64,000 bases of DNA from Flavobacterium franklandianum (GTDB lineage: Bacteria > Bacteroidota > Bacteroidia > Flavobacteriales > Flavobacteriaceae), in the NCBI RefSeq assembly GCF_007097365.1, contig NZ_VJZR01000010.1:62001-126000 (forward strand), written 5' to 3'. Position 1 is the first letter of the stretch. Every line of letters begins with the position of its first letter. The notes under the pieces are model-generated. The model made no database searches, was not told the origin of the DNA, and was given only the letters and a program-made list of their open reading frames with translations. The translations under genes were made by a program, and so were the position numbers. This document shows positions 9,552 through 49,158 of the stretch, piece after piece.

Positions 9552-9975
9552 ATAAGTTGGTTTAACTTAATAATTAAAAAAATAGAAGTAAGTGAACAGT
9601 AGATTACTAGGGACAGTATTCTTGAATTTTGTAAATATAATAAAAAAACTATTCAATTGTAAATAAGAAGATTAAATAGGATAATAATTTGTTTTTTAAA
9701 CAGTGTTCAATGCCGACTATTTTAATGAGTTTCATTGGTTTTTAAAAACTTAATAAATTGCGACCCAATTTTTATCAAAGACAAACTTTTTGTCTTGTTT
9801 TTAAACTAAGATGTCATTGTGACTGTCAACGACAATAACTATGATTTGAATTTACTGCTACAAACAACATTAAAAAATAAACCTTAATACTATAATTTTC
9901 TGAATTTCCAAATCCTCAAATTTTCTATTCACCAAATAAAATCATACTTTAGCATTCTGTAAATTTTATAGTAAA
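9552..9975. other. 424-bp intergenic region between divergent genes
   Basis: This AT-rich stretch separates the LytTR regulator (minus) from nadC (plus) and must hold both promoters. A near-match to the Bacteroidota -7 box (TACTTTAG) lies in the 30 bases before nadC, and weaker TA-rich candidates precede the regulator. I see no reading frame, RNA gene, hairpin terminator or repeat in it. Confidence 0.5.
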
Positions 9976-10833
9976 ATGATTAACGAAAAACAATTCAACA
10001 ACGAACTTCAACTCATCATTCAAAACGCCATTCGTGAAGATGTAGGCGATGGCGATCACAGTTCTTTGGCTTGTATTCCGGCATCGGCAACAGGAAAAGC
10101 ACAACTTATTGTCAAAGAAAACGGCATTATTGCTGGCGTAGCTTTCGCCAAAATGATTTTCGAATATGTCGATAGCAATCTCAAAGTAGAAACATTCATC
10201 ACCGATGGAACTCCTGTAAAAAAAGGCGATGTGGTTTTTCATGTTTCAGGAAGTTCACAGGCTATTCTCAAATCCGAAAGACTCGTACTCAATTCGATGC
10301 AAAGAATGAGCGCCATTGCCACAAAAACCAAAAGCTATGTCGATTTGCTTCAAGGAACCAAAACACAAATTCTGGATACACGTAAAACCACACCTGGATT
10401 CCGTGCATGCGAAAAATGGGCAGTAAAAATTGGCGGAGGTGAAAACCACCGTTTTGCATTGTATGATATGATTATGCTCAAGGACAACCACATCGATTTT
10501 GCGGGCGGAATTACCTTGGCAATCAACAAAACCAAAGCGTATCTCAAAGAAAATAATCTCGATCTAAAAATTATCGTCGAAGCCAGAGATTTAGGCGAAA
10601 TCAAGGAAATTCTCGAAAGCGAAGGCATTTATAGAATCTTAATCGACAATCTCGATTTTGAAGACACCAAAAAAGCGGTTGCCTTAATTGGTGATCAATG
10701 CCAAACAGAATCTTCTGGAAACATAAATGAAAATACGATTCGCAGTTATGCCGAGTGTGGCGTTGATTACATTTCGTCTGGAGCATTGACGCATTCAATT
10801 TACAATATGGATTTAAGTTTGAAAGCTTTTTAA
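9976..10833 (+). CDS. nadC: Nicotinate-nucleotide pyrophosphorylase (quinolinate phosphoribosyltransferase)
   Basis: A 285-residue enzyme of de novo NAD synthesis. It makes nicotinate mononucleotide from quinolinate and PRPP, with release of CO2. Family hallmarks are visible: an N-terminal open-face sandwich domain, then TRKTTPGFRACEKWAVKIGGG and HRFALYDMIMLKDNH in the barrel, IIVEARDLGE, and the C-terminal GVDYISSGALTHS. The length is normal for NadC. The ATG at 9976 starts MINEKQFNNELQ, as expected. No nadA or nadB is nearby, so it is a lone gene; a 7-bp repeat array begins 7 bases after its stop. Confidence 0.95.
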   Translation: MINEKQFNNELQLIIQNAIREDVGDGDHSSLACIPASATGKAQLIVKENGIIAGVAFAKMIFEYVDSNLKVETFITDGTPVKKGDVVFHVSGSSQAILKSERLVLNSMQRMSAIATKTKSYVDLLQGTKTQILDTRKTTPGFRACEKWAVKIGGGENHRFALYDMIMLKDNHIDFAGGITLAINKTKAYLKENNLDLKIIVEARDLGEIKEILESEGIYRILIDNLDFEDTKKAVALIGDQCQTESSGNINENTIRSYAECGVDYISSGALTHSIYNMDLSLKAF

Positions 10834-10840
10834 TTAAGAT

Positions 10841-10896
10841 AGCAGAAGGCAGATTGCAGATGGCAGGTAGCAGATAGCAGAAGGCAGTTTGCAGGT
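10841..10896 (+). repeat. Array of eight degenerate 7-bp repeats (NGCAGAT orientation)
   Basis: Eight consecutive heptamers follow nadC: AGCAGAA, GGCAGAT, TGCAGAT, GGCAGGT, AGCAGAT, AGCAGAA, GGCAGTT, TGCAGGT. The phase is kept exactly throughout. The same motif in the opposite orientation follows the next gene (11308-11356), so the pair brackets the four-helix-bundle gene as an inverted repeat. Confidence 0.85.
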
Positions 10897-10941
10897 AGTT
10901 GTATTTCAAAAGAGTAGATGTGTGAATTTAAATTAATACTT

Positions 10942-11301
10942 ATGAGATTTCAGGATTTATTAGCTTACAAGAAATCATTTGAATTGGCAATGGATATTTT
11001 TTCTATTTCAATAAATTTTCCTGCTGAAGAGAAATATTCGTTGACGGATCAAATCAGGCGTTCTTCTAGAAGTGTCTCTGCAAATATTGCAGAAGCAACT
11101 AGGAAAAGAAAATATGAGAAACATTTTGTTTCTAAATTAACGGATAGTGATGCTGAAAATGCTGAAACTCAGGTGTGGCTTGAATATTCACATGCTTGCA
11201 ATTATATTGATACTATTAAGTTTGAAAATTTAACTTCAAAAAGTCTTGAAGTCGGAAAGCTATTAAACTATATGATGAATAATCCAGATAAATTTTTATG
11301 A
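10942..11301 (+). CDS. Four-helix-bundle protein (23S rRNA intervening-sequence / S23 family)
   Basis: The start chosen is the ATG at 10942 (MRFQDLLAYKKSFELA), because family members begin at this point; an upstream ATG at 10918 would add eight atypical residues. The 119-residue product has the hallmarks of the S23/IVS four-helix-bundle family: LLAYKKS in helix 1, YSLTDQIRRSSRSVSANIAEA in helix 2, then a helix with AENAETQVWLEYSHACNYI. Relatives are encoded inside 23S rRNA intervening sequences, and the Avd proteins of diversity-generating retroelements share the fold. The molecular role is not established. Inverted arrays of 7-bp repeats on both sides suggest the gene travels or is maintained as a unit. 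Confidence 0.85.
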   Translation: MRFQDLLAYKKSFELAMDIFSISINFPAEEKYSLTDQIRRSSRSVSANIAEATRKRKYEKHFVSKLTDSDAENAETQVWLEYSHACNYIDTIKFENLTSKSLEVGKLLNYMMNNPDKFL

Positions 11302-11307
11302 ATATTT

Positions 11308-11356
11308 CAATCTCAAACCTGCAACCTGAAATCTGCAACCTGAAATCTGCTATCTG
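11308..11356 (-). repeat. Array of seven degenerate 7-bp repeats (AAATCTG orientation)
   Basis: Seven heptamers in phase: CAATCTC, AAACCTG, CAACCTG, AAATCTG, CAACCTG, AAATCTG, CTATCTG. The unit is the reverse complement of the unit at 10841-10896. The array stops six bases before the ATG of the YihY-family gene at 11363, so it probably lies in that gene's leader. Confidence 0.85.
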
Positions 11357-11362
11357 AAAATT

Positions 11363-12310
11363 ATGAGTAAAGAAATAGAAGAAAGGATTGAAAAAATTCC
11401 TATACTACGCAATGTGGTTCGTCCGTTAAAAAAGATAAAAATGCCCAAATTGGGAGGCTTGTCTTTCTACGATTTATTAGAATTGTACGGTCTCGGAATT
11501 GCCGAAAGTGCCTTTTCATATCACGCCAGCGCGATTGCATTTAGCTTTTTTATGGCCTTGTTTCCTTTTGCATTATTTATCTTGAATCTTATTCCTTTCA
11601 TTCCAATCGAAGGATTTCAGGCCGATTTTTTGGAGTTTGTTAAGGATGGAGTCCCTCCCAATACATATGATGCCATTTATAAAATCATTAGTGATATTCT
11701 GAATAATAGTCATTCTGGATTACTTTCTTCGGGTTTTATATTGTCTATTTTCTTGATGGCAAACGGGTTGAACGGTATTTTGGGCGGTTTTGAATCCTCG
11801 AAGCACGTCCTCATCAAAAGAGGTTTTTTGCACCAATATTTGGTTGCTTTGGGAATGTCTTTAGTTTTGTCGTTATTGTTGTTGTTGACAGTTACAATAA
11901 TTATCGTTTTTGAAGTTTTTATTCAAATGACAATGATTCAGGATGTGTTTAGCGATAAGATTCCTTTAATCATTTTAGGAAGATATGTCTTTGTAATTTT
12001 AATGATTTTGGTTACCATATCCATACTTTTCAAGTTTGGAACGACGCACACTAAAAATAGCGCTTTTATTTCAATAGGTTCTGTATTTACTACTATTTTG
12101 GTAATTTTAGATTCTTATGCTTTTGGGATTTGGGTATTGCGATTTTCTAAATACAACGAATTGTATGGTTCCATCGGGACGTTGTTGATAATGATGTTTT
12201 ATATTTGGATAAACTGCGCCATTTTACTTTTAGGTTTCGAATTGAATGAGTCTATAAACAAATTGAAGCAGAAAAAAGGCGTTAAAATTAATGCCGAAGG
12301 AACGAATTAA
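11363..12310 (+). CDS. YihY/virulence factor BrkB family membrane protein
   Basis: A 315-residue inner-membrane protein. After a charged 45-residue cytoplasmic lead come six hydrophobic helices. The family signature is near the first helix: ESAFSYHASAIAFSFFMALFPF, followed by the short hydrophilic segment with PPNTYDAIYKII and later FGTTHTKNSAF. The C-terminus is Lys-rich. The family was once called ribonuclease BN, a label now considered wrong; its true function is unclear. It lies directly after the 7-bp repeat array and 31 bases before priA. Confidence 0.9.
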   Translation: MSKEIEERIEKIPILRNVVRPLKKIKMPKLGGLSFYDLLELYGLGIAESAFSYHASAIAFSFFMALFPFALFILNLIPFIPIEGFQADFLEFVKDGVPPNTYDAIYKIISDILNNSHSGLLSSGFILSIFLMANGLNGILGGFESSKHVLIKRGFLHQYLVALGMSLVLSLLLLLTVTIIIVFEVFIQMTMIQDVFSDKIPLIILGRYVFVILMILVTISILFKFGTTHTKNSAFISIGSVFTTILVILDSYAFGIWVLRFSKYNELYGSIGTLLIMMFYIWINCAILLLGFELNESINKLKQKKGVKINAEGTN

Positions 12311-12341
12311 TAGTATTGAAAATTGAAATCCCATATTGATA

Positions 12342-14792
12342 ATGCATTTTGTAGAAATAATTTTGCCACTTTCCCTCGCCAAAACGTTCACTTACAGCGT
12401 TTCTGAATCCGAGTACAATTACATTCAAAAGGGAATGCGGGTAGCAGTGCCTTTCGGCAAAAGTAAGATCTACACGGCATTGGTTATCGAGATTCACGAA
12501 AACAAACCTACATTATACGATGCCAAGGAAATTCACCAAATTCTTGATGAAAAACCCATAGTCAACGAAATTCAAATCGCCCATTGGCAATGGATTGCTT
12601 CCTATTATATGTGTGCCATTGGGGATGTGTATCGAGGTGCAATGCCATCGGCACTTTTGCTGGAAAGCGAAACGATTATTTCTCAAAAACAAGACGGTTT
12701 TGTGAACGAAAGCTTGCTGTCAGATGACGAATTTTTGGTTTATCAAGCCTTGCAGCAACAAAGTTCCTTGAAGGTTCAGGATATTATGAGCATTTTGAAT
12801 AAGAAGAATGTTTTTCCTGTTATTCAAAAATTGATAGACAAAAACATTCTCGTTCTTCAAGAAGAAATGCTAGATACTTATACGCCAAAACTTATTCGAT
12901 ACGTAAAATTACATTCCAAATACGAAACGAATGAAGGCTTGGGAGAATTATTAGAAGTGCTTAAAAATGCCAACAAACAAAAGGAAATTGTCTTGACTTA
13001 TTTTCAATTGAGTGCTTCTGAAAAAAAGCCAATTACCGTAAAAAAGTTAATTGAATCGGCAAAATCCACTTCGACAATTGTTAAAGCATTAATCGATAAA
13101 GAAATTTTTTCAGCATATTACATTCAAGTAGATCGTGTTAATTTCTCAGGAAAAACGAAGGAAGAACAACTGCAATTAAGCGAAGCGCAGCAAACGGCTT
13201 TCGAAGAAATTAAGCAAAGTTTTGTCCAAAAAGAAGTTTGTCTTTTGCACGGAGTAACGTCCAGCGGAAAAACCGAAATCTACATCAAACTCATCGAAGA
13301 ATATATTAAGGAAGAAAAACAAATCCTGTATTTATTGCCCGAAATTGCTCTAACAACCCAATTAGTGGGAAGGTTGCGCGATTATTTTGGGAATAAGGTA
13401 GCCGTTTTTCATTCGAAATACAGCAATAACGAAAGGGTAGAAGTGTGGCAACAAGTTTTGGAAAAGTCACCGAAAGCCCAAATTGTAATAGGAGCAAGGT
13501 CGGCTTTGTTTTTGCCATTTTCAAATTTGGGATTTGTAATTGTCGATGAAGAACACGAGCAAACTTTCAAACAAGTCGATCCATCGCCACGTTATCACGC
13601 CCGAGATGCTTCAATAGTTTTGGCAAATAGTCATAAAGCAAAAGTTTTATTAGGTTCGGCTACGCCAAGTATTGAAACGTATTTTAATGCGCAATCTGGA
13701 AAATATGGTTTGGTCGAGATTTCTAAAAGATATGGTAATGTCAAAATGCCCGAAATCGAATTGGTGGACTTAAAAGACAAATACTTTCGCAAGAAAATGT
13801 CGGGGCATTTTAGTGATACATTAATAGAAGAAATCACAAATGCGTTATCCTTAGGCGAACAAGTTATTTTGTTTCAAAACCGCAGAGGTTATTCGCCAAT
13901 TATCGAATGTTTGACTTGTGGTCACGTCCCGCAATGTCCGCAATGCGATGTGAGTTTGACCTATCACAAACATAAAAACCAGTTGCGTTGTCATTATTGC
14001 GGGTATTCAATGGCAAAACCAACGAATTGTCACGCTTGTACCAGTGTTCATCTCACCACCAAAGGTTTTGGAACAGAGCAAATTCAGCAGGAATTGGTCG
14101 AATTATTTCCAAACACTAAAATTGGTCGTATGGATCAAGATACGACTCGAGGAAAATTTGGTTTCGAAAAAATCATTGATAGTTTCAAAAATCGTGAAAT
14201 TGAAATTCTTGTTGGAACCCAAATGCTAGCCAAAGGTTTAGATTTTGATAACGTAAGTTTGGTAGGGATTATGAATGCCGACAATATGTTGTATCATCCT
14301 GATTTTAGGGCTTTCGAAAGAAGTTTTCAAATGATGACACAGGTTTCTGGTCGTTCCGGACGTTCAGAAAAACAAGGAAAAGTGATTATTCAAACCTATA
14401 ATCCAGATCACAACACCATTCAGCAAGTAGTTCACAATAATTATATAGGTATGTATAAGGAACAATTGTATGAAAGGCAAATTTATAAATATCCTCCTTA
14501 TTTCAAACTGATAAAGTTAACTTTGAAGCACCGGGATTTCGACAAACTCAAAGAAGGTTCGATGTGGTTGTATCAAGTGATGCAGCAAAACTTCACTATT
14601 CCAGTTCTTGGTCCTGAAGAGCCGCCTATTTCTAGAATTCGGAACGAATACATTAGAACCATAATGATAAAAATTCCGACAAACCAGTCCTTACAAGGCA
14701 CAAAAAAAACTATTCAGAAAATACTGAATAGTTTTGATGTTGTTTCACAATACAGAGCAATAAAAGTGTCTGTAAATGTCGATTTTTATTAG
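12342..14792 (+). CDS. priA: Primosomal replication restart helicase PriA
   Basis: An 816-residue 3'-5' DNA helicase that reloads the replisome at stalled forks. The ATG at 12342 (MHFVEIILPLSLAKTFTYSV) gives the family N-terminus; the TTG two codons upstream is rejected. Visible features are the 3'BD DNA-binding domain (1-105), a winged-helix region, Walker A GVTSSGKTE (residues 304-312), the DEEH box at 402-405, GSATPS, the cysteine-rich zinc region (CLTCGHVPQCPQC and CHYCGY, about 523-560) and GRSGRS of the second RecA lobe. It is full length. Its last four bases overlap the end of the convergent LytTR gene. Confidence 0.97.
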   Translation: MHFVEIILPLSLAKTFTYSVSESEYNYIQKGMRVAVPFGKSKIYTALVIEIHENKPTLYDAKEIHQILDEKPIVNEIQIAHWQWIASYYMCAIGDVYRGAMPSALLLESETIISQKQDGFVNESLLSDDEFLVYQALQQQSSLKVQDIMSILNKKNVFPVIQKLIDKNILVLQEEMLDTYTPKLIRYVKLHSKYETNEGLGELLEVLKNANKQKEIVLTYFQLSASEKKPITVKKLIESAKSTSTIVKALIDKEIFSAYYIQVDRVNFSGKTKEEQLQLSEAQQTAFEEIKQSFVQKEVCLLHGVTSSGKTEIYIKLIEEYIKEEKQILYLLPEIALTTQLVGRLRDYFGNKVAVFHSKYSNNERVEVWQQVLEKSPKAQIVIGARSALFLPFSNLGFVIVDEEHEQTFKQVDPSPRYHARDASIVLANSHKAKVLLGSATPSIETYFNAQSGKYGLVEISKRYGNVKMPEIELVDLKDKYFRKKMSGHFSDTLIEEITNALSLGEQVILFQNRRGYSPIIECLTCGHVPQCPQCDVSLTYHKHKNQLRCHYCGYSMAKPTNCHACTSVHLTTKGFGTEQIQQELVELFPNTKIGRMDQDTTRGKFGFEKIIDSFKNREIEILVGTQMLAKGLDFDNVSLVGIMNADNMLYHPDFRAFERSFQMMTQVSGRSGRSEKQGKVIIQTYNPDHNTIQQVVHNNYIGMYKEQLYERQIYKYPPYFKLIKLTLKHRDFDKLKEGSMWLYQVMQQNFTIPVLGPEEPPISRIRNEYIRTIMIKIPTNQSLQGTKKTIQKILNSFDVVSQYRAIKVSVNVDFY

Positions 14793-20118: not shown

Positions 20119-20153
20119 AAATCTAATATCCTGAATCTAAAATCTAAAATTAA
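20119..20153 (+). repeat. Array of five 7-bp repeats (AAATCTA type)
   Basis: In-phase heptamers AAATCTA, ATATCCT, GAATCTA, AAATCTA, AAATTAA. They end one base before the GTG start at 20155. The unit resembles the AAATCTG unit of the array at 11308-11356. Confidence 0.7.
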
Positions 20154-20154
20154 A

Positions 20155-45734: not shown

Positions 45735-45745
45735 TTTGAGGGAAG

Positions 45746-45780
45746 AGTTTAGAAGTTAGAAGTTAGAAATTAGCATTTAG
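45746..45780 (+). repeat. Array of five 7-bp repeats (AAGTTAG type)
   Basis: In-phase heptamers AGTTTAG, AAGTTAG, AAGTTAG, AAATTAG, CATTTAG lie between the miaA stop and the thioesterase start. The array begins 11 bases upstream of the thioesterase ATG on the minus strand. Confidence 0.75.
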
Positions 45781-45785
45781 AATTT

Positions 45786-46712
45786 TTATATTCCATTGCC
45801 GTTGATATTGCCATTGATATTGTTATTGATATTTTTTATAATTTCTTTTCTATCCATCAAATAATCGAACCACATTGTTTGTTCGTTTCTTTTGAACCAA
45901 GTGAGTTGTCTTTTGGCAAATCGTCGGGTGTTTTTCTTGATTTCTTCGATGGCAAAATCCAAGGAGATTTCGCCTTCAAAATAACTGAATAATTCTCTGT
46001 AACCAACCGTTTGTAAAGCATTCAAGTCTTTGTGAGCAAATAAATTTTCGGCTTCGGCCAATAAACCTTCGGTCATCATTATGTCAACTCGCTGGTTAAT
46101 TCTATCGTAAATCAGGCTTCTTTCAGCTTCTAAACCAATAAGGATAGGAGTGAAGTTGCGAGTGTTTTTCTTTTGGTTTAAAAAGGAAGAATAAGGTTTT
46201 CCAGAACCAATGCAAACTTCCAAGGCACGCATCATTCGTTGTGGATTTTCTTTGGCCACGACTTCAAAATAATTGGGGTCACGTTTTTTTAATTCGGTTT
46301 GCAAATATTCGATTCCTAATTTTTCATAATTAGAAGTGACTTCACCCCGAACAGAAGTTTCAATTTCGGGAAAATCGTCAAAACCTTTTAAAATAGCGTC
46401 ACCGTATAAACCTGAACCGCCAACCAGAACAACATAATCATTGGTTAAAAATAATTCATCGAGTTTGGCAATGGCTTCTTTTTCGAAATCGCCTACGGTA
46501 TAATTTTCGAAAATGGATTTGTTTTGGATGAAATGATGTTGTGCTCCAGCCAATTCTTCGGTCGTGGGAACAGCGGTGCCAATTTGCATTTCCTTGAAAA
46601 ATTGTCGGCTGTCGCAGGAAATAATATCGCAATTGAAATGTTGCGCCAAGGTGATGCTCAAGGAAGTTTTTCCTATGGCTGTTGGTCCGACGATGGTGAT
46701 TAAGTACTTCAT
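45786..46712 (-). CDS. miaA: tRNA dimethylallyltransferase
   Basis: A 308-residue enzyme that adds a dimethylallyl group to A37 of tRNAs that read codons starting with U. The ATG at 46712 gives MKYLITIVGPTAIGKTSLSI, the expected P-loop start; a longer frame would read through an intergenic repeat. Other hallmarks are ISCDSRQFFKEMQIGTA, VLVGGSGLYGDAIL and the C-terminal KRNEQTMWFDY. The last residues, NINNNINGNINGNGI, come from a 12-bp DNA repeat and are probably not needed for catalysis. Confidence 0.95.
   Translation of the reverse strand: MKYLITIVGPTAIGKTSLSITLAQHFNCDIISCDSRQFFKEMQIGTAVPTTEELAGAQHHFIQNKSIFENYTVGDFEKEAIAKLDELFLTNDYVVLVGGSGLYGDAILKGFDDFPEIETSVRGEVTSNYEKLGIEYLQTELKKRDPNYFEVVAKENPQRMMRALEVCIGSGKPYSSFLNQKKNTRNFTPILIGLEAERSLIYDRINQRVDIMMTEGLLAEAENLFAHKDLNALQTVGYRELFSYFEGEISLDFAIEEIKKNTRRFAKRQLTWFKRNEQTMWFDYLMDRKEIIKNINNNINGNINGNGI
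45798..45833 (-). repeat. 12-bp tandem repeat in the miaA 3' end
   Basis: Three copies of a 12-bp unit (sense AATATCAATGGC with variants), encoding NINN-NING-NING at the C-terminus of MiaA. Such repeats can vary in copy number without breaking the frame. Confidence 0.75.
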
Positions 46713-49076: not shown

Positions 49077-49104
49077 AATAAGTGTTCGGTGTTCAGTTTT
49101 TAGT

Positions 49105-49158
49105 CTTCAGATTTCAAATCTGAATTCAAAAAGCGTTAATCTTAAATCAAAAATCAAA
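49105..49158 (+). repeat. Weak 7-bp repeats and a palindrome between yggS and the exonuclease gene
   Basis: CAGATTT-C-AAATCTG (49109-49123) is a perfect 15-base palindrome, and TAATCTT, AAATCAA, AAATCAA (49138-49158) follow in 7-bp phase. It seems to be a degenerate relative of the heptamer arrays elsewhere in the window. Confidence 0.45.

Follow-up and report, generated by a model that had tools for sequence, protein, structure and literature searches.

The closest described counterparts of the locus reported here are the intervening sequences (IVS) of bacterial ribosomal RNA. In the sections of PMC4990558 drawn on here, the 23S rRNA IVS of Coxiella burnetii carries heptameric repeats (GACAGAT) before its S23 gene and is excised in vitro by RNase III, and the mobility of the IVS is given as theory. 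A second system, REPIN/RAYT, consists, according to the part of the source used, of intergenic inverted pairs that form hairpins, small non-autonomous copies matched to a resident gene with which co-evolution has been proposed (PMC3116915). Hairpin P6b of the Nostoc trnL intron has a stem of 7-nt motifs, two motif classes filling one structural role (PMC4476775, in part). Intergenic heptamer arrays have been reported as TAACTGA in Beggiatoaceae and others (PMC4679880), and as GGGAATC in Xanthomonas and GGGGA(C/T)T in Nostoc, with 70 convergent inverted pairs in Xanthomonas campestris (PMC4692102; both papers in part). A word search of the accessible text of these two papers returned no mention of S23. 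X. campestris encodes the S23 protein XCC0516, which is PDB entry 2gsc.

The element described here shares with the rRNA IVS of Coxiella and of an Azospirillum plasmid (locus L408, below) a terminal stem whose loop contains the S23 gene, the heptameric repeats or arms and the sporadic presence; here, however, the element sits in the transcript of a protein-coding operon, its units have a GCAG core and arrays without S23 occur in the same genome. Intergenic inverted hairpin pairs are common to this element and REPIN/RAYT, and small copies matched to a resident gene may be, but no RAYT lies beside the arrays, the ends are tandem arrays of 7-8 bp units whose sequence varies instead of a fixed palindrome, and the protein is a four-helix bundle. 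The P6b stem is likewise built on 7-nt repeats but is part of a group I intron, and the portion of PMC4476775 consulted does not mention S23. The heptamers of Beggiatoaceae, Xanthomonas and Nostoc are, as far as the cited excerpts describe them, 7-bp arrays lying mostly between genes, as in this locus.

Within the open-licence PMC literature, subscription journals being beyond its scope, our search found no paper connecting S23 genes outside rRNA with heptamer arrays. Each of the three parts, protein family, IVS and heptamer repeats, is known, while the joint rule of array and S23 gene is, to our knowledge, new; the comparison ties S23-type IVS to heptamer repeats, a separate puzzle of several bacterial groups.

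The S23 gene between nadC and yihY

The window is a 64-kb stretch of Flavobacterium franklandianum (GCF_007097365.1, contig NZ_VJZR01000010.1); its genome is called G000 below and the S23 locus in it L004. The features are collected in Table 1.

Table 1. Features of the window (positions within the 64-kb stretch)
Feature	Position	Strand	Evidence
nadC (quinolinate phosphoribosyltransferase), upstream host gene	9976..10833	+	PF01729, PF02749
Upstream-flank segment best matching the downstream array, inverted; partner 11319-11358	10834..10873	+	inverted local alignment score 40 (positions converted from L004); arms paired in RNA fold
Upstream array, eight 7-bp units GCAG(A/G/T)NN	10842..10897	+	lag-7 score 19, 0/1000 shuffles
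S23 / 23S_rRNA_IVP four-helix-bundle gene, 119 aa from ATG at 10942; open frame from 10918	10942..11301	+	PF05635, TIGR02436
Downstream array, seven 7-bp units in opposite orientation, AACCTGC / AATCTGC type, first degenerate	11309..11357	-	lag-7 score 14, 0/1000 shuffles
YihY/BrkB family gene, downstream host gene	11363..12310	+	PF03631
Solo array, unit GTTAGAA, no adjoining S23 gene	45749..45785	+	lag-7 score 20; score 44 vs arms of own locus L008

The upstream GCAG recurs at 10842, 10849, 10856, 10863, 10870, 10877, 10884 and 10891, in exact 7-bp phase. The downstream units read, in order, AATCTCA, AACCTGC, AACCTGA, AATCTGC, AACCTGA, AATCTGC and TATCTGA, six of the seven holding [TC]CTG. 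These positions confirm the original prediction of eight heptamers before the gene and seven inverted ones after it, both in 7-bp phase, and the shuffles that failed to attain either lag-7 score were mononucleotide shuffles. Throughout the whole window, a scan of lags 2-15 for scores of at least 14 gave three segments at lag 7 (both arms and the solo array), two at lag 14 (both arms), one at lag 12 and none at other lags.

The inverted similarity of the two flanks, 40, exceeded that at 2000 random positions in stretches of G000, G010 and G073, which had a median of 18, a 99th percentile of 27 and a maximum of 37. The computed fold of the transcript paired the arms at −143.9 kcal/mol, compared with −112.25 ± 5.79 for 100 shuffles (z −5.47). 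In this computed fold the terminal inverted repeats form a stem with the S23 gene in its loop, as in an IVS and as had been proposed for this transcript, for which a long imperfect stem was suggested. As the site is nadC-yihY and no rRNA was matched in 9800-12600, the element was not filed as an rRNA IVS. The one Rfam match in 9800-12600 was below threshold and was taken as chance. No RAYT transposase gene adjoins the arrays, the neighbours being nadC and yihY. Stretches 82-84% identical to the upstream array alone (10837-10894) were seen on plasmids of Pseudomonas silvicola (4 places) and Klebsiella pneumoniae (2 places), with no listed feature beneath them.

The window protein scored 104.6 bits with PF05635 (cut-off 33.8) and 98.4 bits with TIGR02436 (cut-off 24), which places it in the family, and its AlphaFold2 model has four helices with a mean pLDDT of 97.0. 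We know of no enzymatic activity of the S23 four-helix bundle. Foldseek matched the model to 2gsc and 2rld (E ≤ 3.3e-4), each of which has five chains in the PDB listing; we take both to be functional pentamers. Basic charge, considered as a sign of nucleic-acid binding, gave no support, the median pI being 7.9 over 191 proteins and 6.7 for the window protein.

Inverted arrays at S23 genes in other genomes

By profile search, S23 genes were present in 99 of the 101 genomes of the genus and in 116 of 148 genomes across the phylum. Flanks were analysed by one fixed rule at 218 usable loci: 8 of the own genome, 67 of the genus, 28 of the phylum, 80 from named GTDB records, 10 from genome G096 and 25 from plasmids. 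These loci are neither random nor independent, many being orthologues chosen from the top of match lists: for genus and phylum the top-scoring profile matches were taken, together with 40 further places picked from the genus list, the named loci are the best 80 of 583, found by a profile scan from a closer set of 7 S23 proteins, and the plasmid loci are 25 of 35 and 27 match records. One locus at a contig end (L028) was dropped throughout, two duplicates (L093 and L109, of L358 and L359) from the final tally and two of the 80 named loci, with short flanks, from one inverted-score comparison. For the two genes with in-frame stops (L005, L007), the end of the profile match served as gene end in flank counts; both were dropped from the tree and, with L402 (all three broken frames), are missing from the ranking by closeness to the window protein.

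The best period was 7 or 8 at 182 of the 218 loci (7, 8 or 9 at 201), compared with 177 of 1000 random positions, drawn from stretches of G000, G010 and G073 only. An inverted score of at least 27 was reached at 143/218 loci and one of at least 24 at 164/218, leaving 75 under 27; among called genes in general, 27 was reached by 16/337, 18/436 and 6/183. Inverted periodic flanks hence accompany S23 genes generally, which is what the original prediction had proposed to check in related genomes; the unit differs among loci. Both neighbours were co-directional with S23 at 168 of 179 loci, as against 55-68% of genes in a control made with a different gene caller. A phage collection yielded two weak relatives only. 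Inverted-repeat S23 loci were also seen in MAG contigs labelled Gastranaerophilales, Cloacimonadota, KSB1 and Ignavibacteriales (L224, L246, L192 and L256), in which bin contamination is possible.

The own genome holds eight PF05635 genes, L005 and L007 being the copies with a stop. By eye, the flanks of all eight are repeat-like and inverted, with a separate unit at each. By the fixed rule, seven reach an inverted score of 27, the exception being L005, a broken copy whose array lies farther out. Six of the eight have 7 as their best period, while one has 10 and one 9 (by reading, L003 and L007).

Period and unit are usually common to both arms of a locus. A clear period, taken as the best among lags 5-10, was seen in 195 arms, being 7 in 116 and 8 in 62, and where both arms were clear (59 loci) the period was shared in 52 (7/7 in 30, 8/8 in 20, other in 2) and differed in seven. 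An arm usually has 3-6 units, with a median length of 32 bp. The period tracks the S23 tree, with 9 changes over 133 loci compared with a shuffled mean of 35.2 and minimum of 29. In pairs of loci at the same site with S23 identity of 50-70%, the own-arm score exceeded the cross-arm score in 242/249, a test that admitted only loci with an own-arm score of at least 24, a filter which favours this outcome; the figures were 113/142 at 70-80%, 53/70 at 80-90% and 19/35 above 90%. The unit evolves faster than the protein, but its two arms tend to change together. The downstream arm of a locus was the best match of its upstream arm in only 23 of 77 loci.

Comparison of the sequences also shows similar repeat units around close S23 relatives that occupy different sites. 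The cross-arm score was at least 24 in 83% of 35 different-site pairs with S23 identity of at least 70%, many of them formed within a single clade that occupies two junctions of a fatty-acid operon (one member, L193, without a downstream neighbour on its contig), in 24% of 248 pairs at 60-70% and in 0-2% below 60%. Other different-site pairs scored 35.5 (L213/L252), 39 (L197/L203) and 25 (L209/L233); the arms of L177/L204 do not match (17.5), and two pairs of the own genome, L002/L003 (22.5) and L004/L005 (20.5), fall short of 24, their units being alike by eye.

Outside its own clade, the window protein has its nearest relatives on cyanobacterial plasmids, those of Nostoc among them (46-54% identity); these relatives are closer to it than the other S23 proteins examined of its own genus. 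Most of these plasmid genes lie between inverted arrays of unit type AGCAGGGG with a period of 7-9. Periodic GCAG/CTGC, a motif picked after the window and the first Nostoc loci had been seen, occurred at 13 of the 17 loci closest to the window protein (in both arms at 8) and at 0/165 others, the 17 being rows above 100 bits with the window included; the four misses are L395, L397, L401 and L405, and a limit of 44% identity gives 13/18, the extra locus being L152 (partial alignment). Inverted scores were 61 on a Gemmatimonadota plasmid (period 8), 55 for an Anabaena gene between cas6 and cas4, 63 in Nostoc edaphicum and 30 in Stanieria; Calothrix L410 had no inverted pair (18). Two cyanobacterial copies (L410, L413) are antisense to both neighbours. 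The neighbours of the plasmid genes were often annotated as recombinases: a tyrosine recombinase or integrase lay downstream at 6 of 18 loci fetched and upstream at 2, and a DDE enzyme downstream at 1 (L388, L389, L392, L394, L402 and L403; also L398, L401 and L400). S23 genes were also observed in or beside CRISPR-cas operons of cyanobacterial plasmids (L411, 1483-1851; L406, 1980-2369; between cas6 and cas4; after cas2).

The original prediction likened the locus to S23 genes in rRNA intervening sequences, and one 23S rRNA gene indeed has an IVS with heptad arms. At L408, on Azospirillum lipoferum plasmid AZO_p2, an S23 frame lies within the LSU rRNA gene, where it occupies a hairpin tip close to model position 1213-1218. 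Its terminal stem consists of the heptads TCAGAGG, ACGGATG, ACAGAGG, ACGGAGG and ACAGAAA and a matching inverted arm; 0/2000 shuffles of either arm attained the lag-7 score, and the fold z is −8.79. In the register GACNGAN these units look to be of the same type as the GACAGAT of Coxiella. Heptad arms in rRNA IVS thus comprise two cases, one of them from the paper. No rRNA context was found at thirteen S23 loci of odd phyla or short contigs. S23 genes of Bacteroidota and Cyanobacteriota are thus shown to have a similar architecture around them, as are those of one Gemmatimonadota plasmid and the one within a 23S rRNA gene of Pseudomonadota.

Occupied and empty junctions

Among the 30 best-matching genomes, the element was present at nadC-yihY in two, the own genome and G062, where S23 again has GCAG arrays; its presence is sporadic, as that of IVS is. 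In the other 28, 13 junctions measured −4 to 43 bp and 15 were S23-less junctions of 71-144 bp, 11 of which had 7/8-bp periodicity (score at least 9) of another unit and were weakly inverted (scores 10-19). With 16 S23 proteins as tblastn queries, S23 was found at folE-cysS in 1 of 15 genomes, at ruvB-queG in 1 of 14, at hisA-hisF in 2 of 14 (31% alike; four of these junctions undisplayed) and at a further junction in 4 of 15, from different clades. Differing S23 clades therefore occupy one junction in different species. By eye, the relatives' nadC-yihY junctions were too divergent for the exact ends of the element, or a target-site duplication, to be fixed. As the same junctions host other short repeats, they may be hot spots for small elements. 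In other species, the intergenic junctions of L258-L316 hold terminator-like hairpins, a CTCTCCCCGACC... element and a CCTAGCCCTGATGGAAGC... element.

Comparison shows the unit of a 7-bp-repeat array, an S23 gene and an inverted array to have been added to a junction that measures −4 to 43 bp in 13 of 29 relatives. This supplies the empty sites sought between nadC and the YihY gene and supports part of the proposal of a small mobile or self-maintaining unit with arrays as its ends: gene and arrays are an insertion relative to these short junctions, and movement itself is an inference. We consider that the window element is probably a small insertion element of the S23-bearing IVS kind, situated in a protein-coding operon junction and having the arrays as ends. 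The S23 gene would be transcribed from the host operon; the arms would pair as an imperfect duplex that RNase III could cut, freeing the S23 message, for which the Coxiella rRNA IVS is an in vitro precedent. The S23 protein, with the fold of 2gsc, 2rld and the retroelement helper Avd, might then recognise the repeat units, perhaps with each subunit reading one unit of 7-8 nt, and such recognition would favour the persistence and spread of the element. We infer transposition, cutting by RNase III and the binding of S23 to the arrays. This reading predicts that an S23 protein would bind arrays that have its own unit and period, and that such arrays would be cut in the transcript; S23 genes with matching clade-specific arrays at junctions empty in relatives are testable material.

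At the RNA level, the duplex of a locus's own arms was stronger than that with arms of other loci in 176 of 190. There was no G.U excess in the arm mismatches, with 89 G.U versus 134 A.C among 601 mismatches of 68 loci; the A.C excess may come from composition (few G before start codons). The sense arm duplex was stronger than the antisense one at 86 and weaker at 103 of 190 loci (p 0.10). Because of this lack of a G.U excess and of stronger sense pairing, the RNA step has no support from covariation. Selection on an RNA stem likewise gained none from the mismatch and duplex-energy tests.

Arrays away from S23 genes and other explanations

In 464 kb of G000, 25 lag-7/8 arrays lay off S23 genes, so that most arrays sampled there are not at S23. 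Twenty of them match the arms of the own eight S23 loci, with a mean best score of 34.8, whereas 200 random sets of eight foreign S23 loci gave a mean of 20.8 and a maximum of 23.2, none being as good. Repeated in G096, which has ten S23 genes and gave 25 arrays in 500 kb, the comparison was weaker, with 18 of 25 matching versus 12.3 and a mean of 29.0 versus 26.4, which is not significant (23 of 200 random sets as good). The original prediction had named, as the finding that would speak against it, arrays equally common away from S23 genes together with inheritance without empty sites. Arrays are indeed common there; empty sites exist, and therefore the combination does not hold. As a whole, that interpretation is partly supported.

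Solo arrays with resident units, as in G000, are what a REPIN- or MITE-like DNA element would leave, its inverted arrays being hairpin ends moved as single-stranded DNA by a transposase acting in trans, for example of the Y1 family, and S23 being cargo or an accessory DNA-binding protein. The equality of the two strands in arm pairing, the six Y1_Tnp matches in G000 and the pairwise behaviour of the arms (in filtered pairs) agree with such an element. Nevertheless, we hold it to be unlikely: 33 of the 101 genus genomes have no Y1_Tnp match, G055, G043, G054 and G026, with 14, 10, 9 and 8 S23 genes, among them, the G096 replicate is not significant, and an insertion into 23S rRNA would presumably be more tolerable if removed from the RNA. 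Dependence on a Y1 transposase is not supported, given these S23-rich genomes.

Slightly less probable still are ordinary heptanucleotide microsatellites, generated in gene junctions by polymerase slippage and hairpin-templated copying, beside which S23 merely sits. Heptanucleotide repeats are over-represented in several bacteria and slippage has been proposed for them in the consulted parts of PMC4679880 and PMC4692102; the 25 arrays off S23, the S23-less periodic nadC-yihY junctions and the absence of an RNA-strand preference are all compatible with this origin. Against it, the pattern is rare at random flanks and ordinary genes, period and unit core track the S23 phylogeny, and the arms share their period in the large majority of the loci where both are clear. 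Lag-7/8 segments numbered 0 in 500 kb of four S23-less genomes and 42 in 1164 kb of seven S23-bearing ones, a contrast that is a hint only, because base composition (G+C) differs, 30 of the 42 coming from G000 and the S23-rich sample G201 giving none. DNA slippage alone was rejected as the whole story on the shared arm periods, the tree, the GCAG core and the generality of the pattern.

The S23 proteins themselves are under strong purifying selection (median dN/dS 0.065, 98 non-independent pairs) and so must do something. L016 and L080, which occupy two junctions of a single fatty-acid operon at a distance of 3 kb, encode proteins 96.6% identical with a dS of 1.34, synonymous sites being near saturation, and at one junction the period is 8 in 22/22 labelled loci. 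Such selection and such constancy of period also fit a host function, that is, an adopted mRNA-processing or regulatory module in which S23 binds its own hairpin and tunes the flanking genes under vertical inheritance; the keeping of the gene at one junction in many species and the prevailing co-direction with both neighbours accord with it. We nonetheless find this module improbable, since the nearest relatives carry the gene at nadC-yihY, folE-cysS, ruvB-queG and hisA-hisF in one or two genomes each, two copies of the own genome contain a stop, and the same junction is occupied by unlike S23 clades in different species.

A relic or satellite of a diversity-generating retroelement, with S23 as an Avd working with a reverse transcriptase, is highly improbable: the Foldseek search that returned 2gsc and 2rld next gave Avd (4dwl, E 0.012, TM 0.79 by query length), whose fold is shared, and the bAvd profile scored 41.5 bits (cut-off 40), but G000 has no RVT_1 match, which rejects dependence on a reverse transcriptase for the own genome, and RVT_1 occurs in 48 of the 101 genus genomes as against 99 for S23.

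Beyond the insertion element favoured for this locus, we put forward more tentatively that all S23 genes, in or out of rRNA, might be one selfish family spanning phyla, its ends being arrays with a 7-8 bp period. Each lineage would read its own unit, one per subunit of a five-membered ring; ribosomal IVS would be copies that landed in rRNA, and the heptamers of Nostoc, Xanthomonas and Bacteroidota would largely be solo ends. If so, the repeat code could be conserved across phyla, an example being the GCAG shared between the window's genome and Nostoc.

The window itself includes further repeats of this kind. At 45744-45852, the GTTAGAA solo array is accompanied by a 12-bp repeat ATTGCCATTGAT that extends into the end of the adjoining gene, which, named by eye from its sequence, looks like miaA. 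Two weaker 7-bp-periodic intergenic stretches, at 49082-49158 (by eye with a short hairpin) and 20119-20154, are candidate decayed solo arrays.
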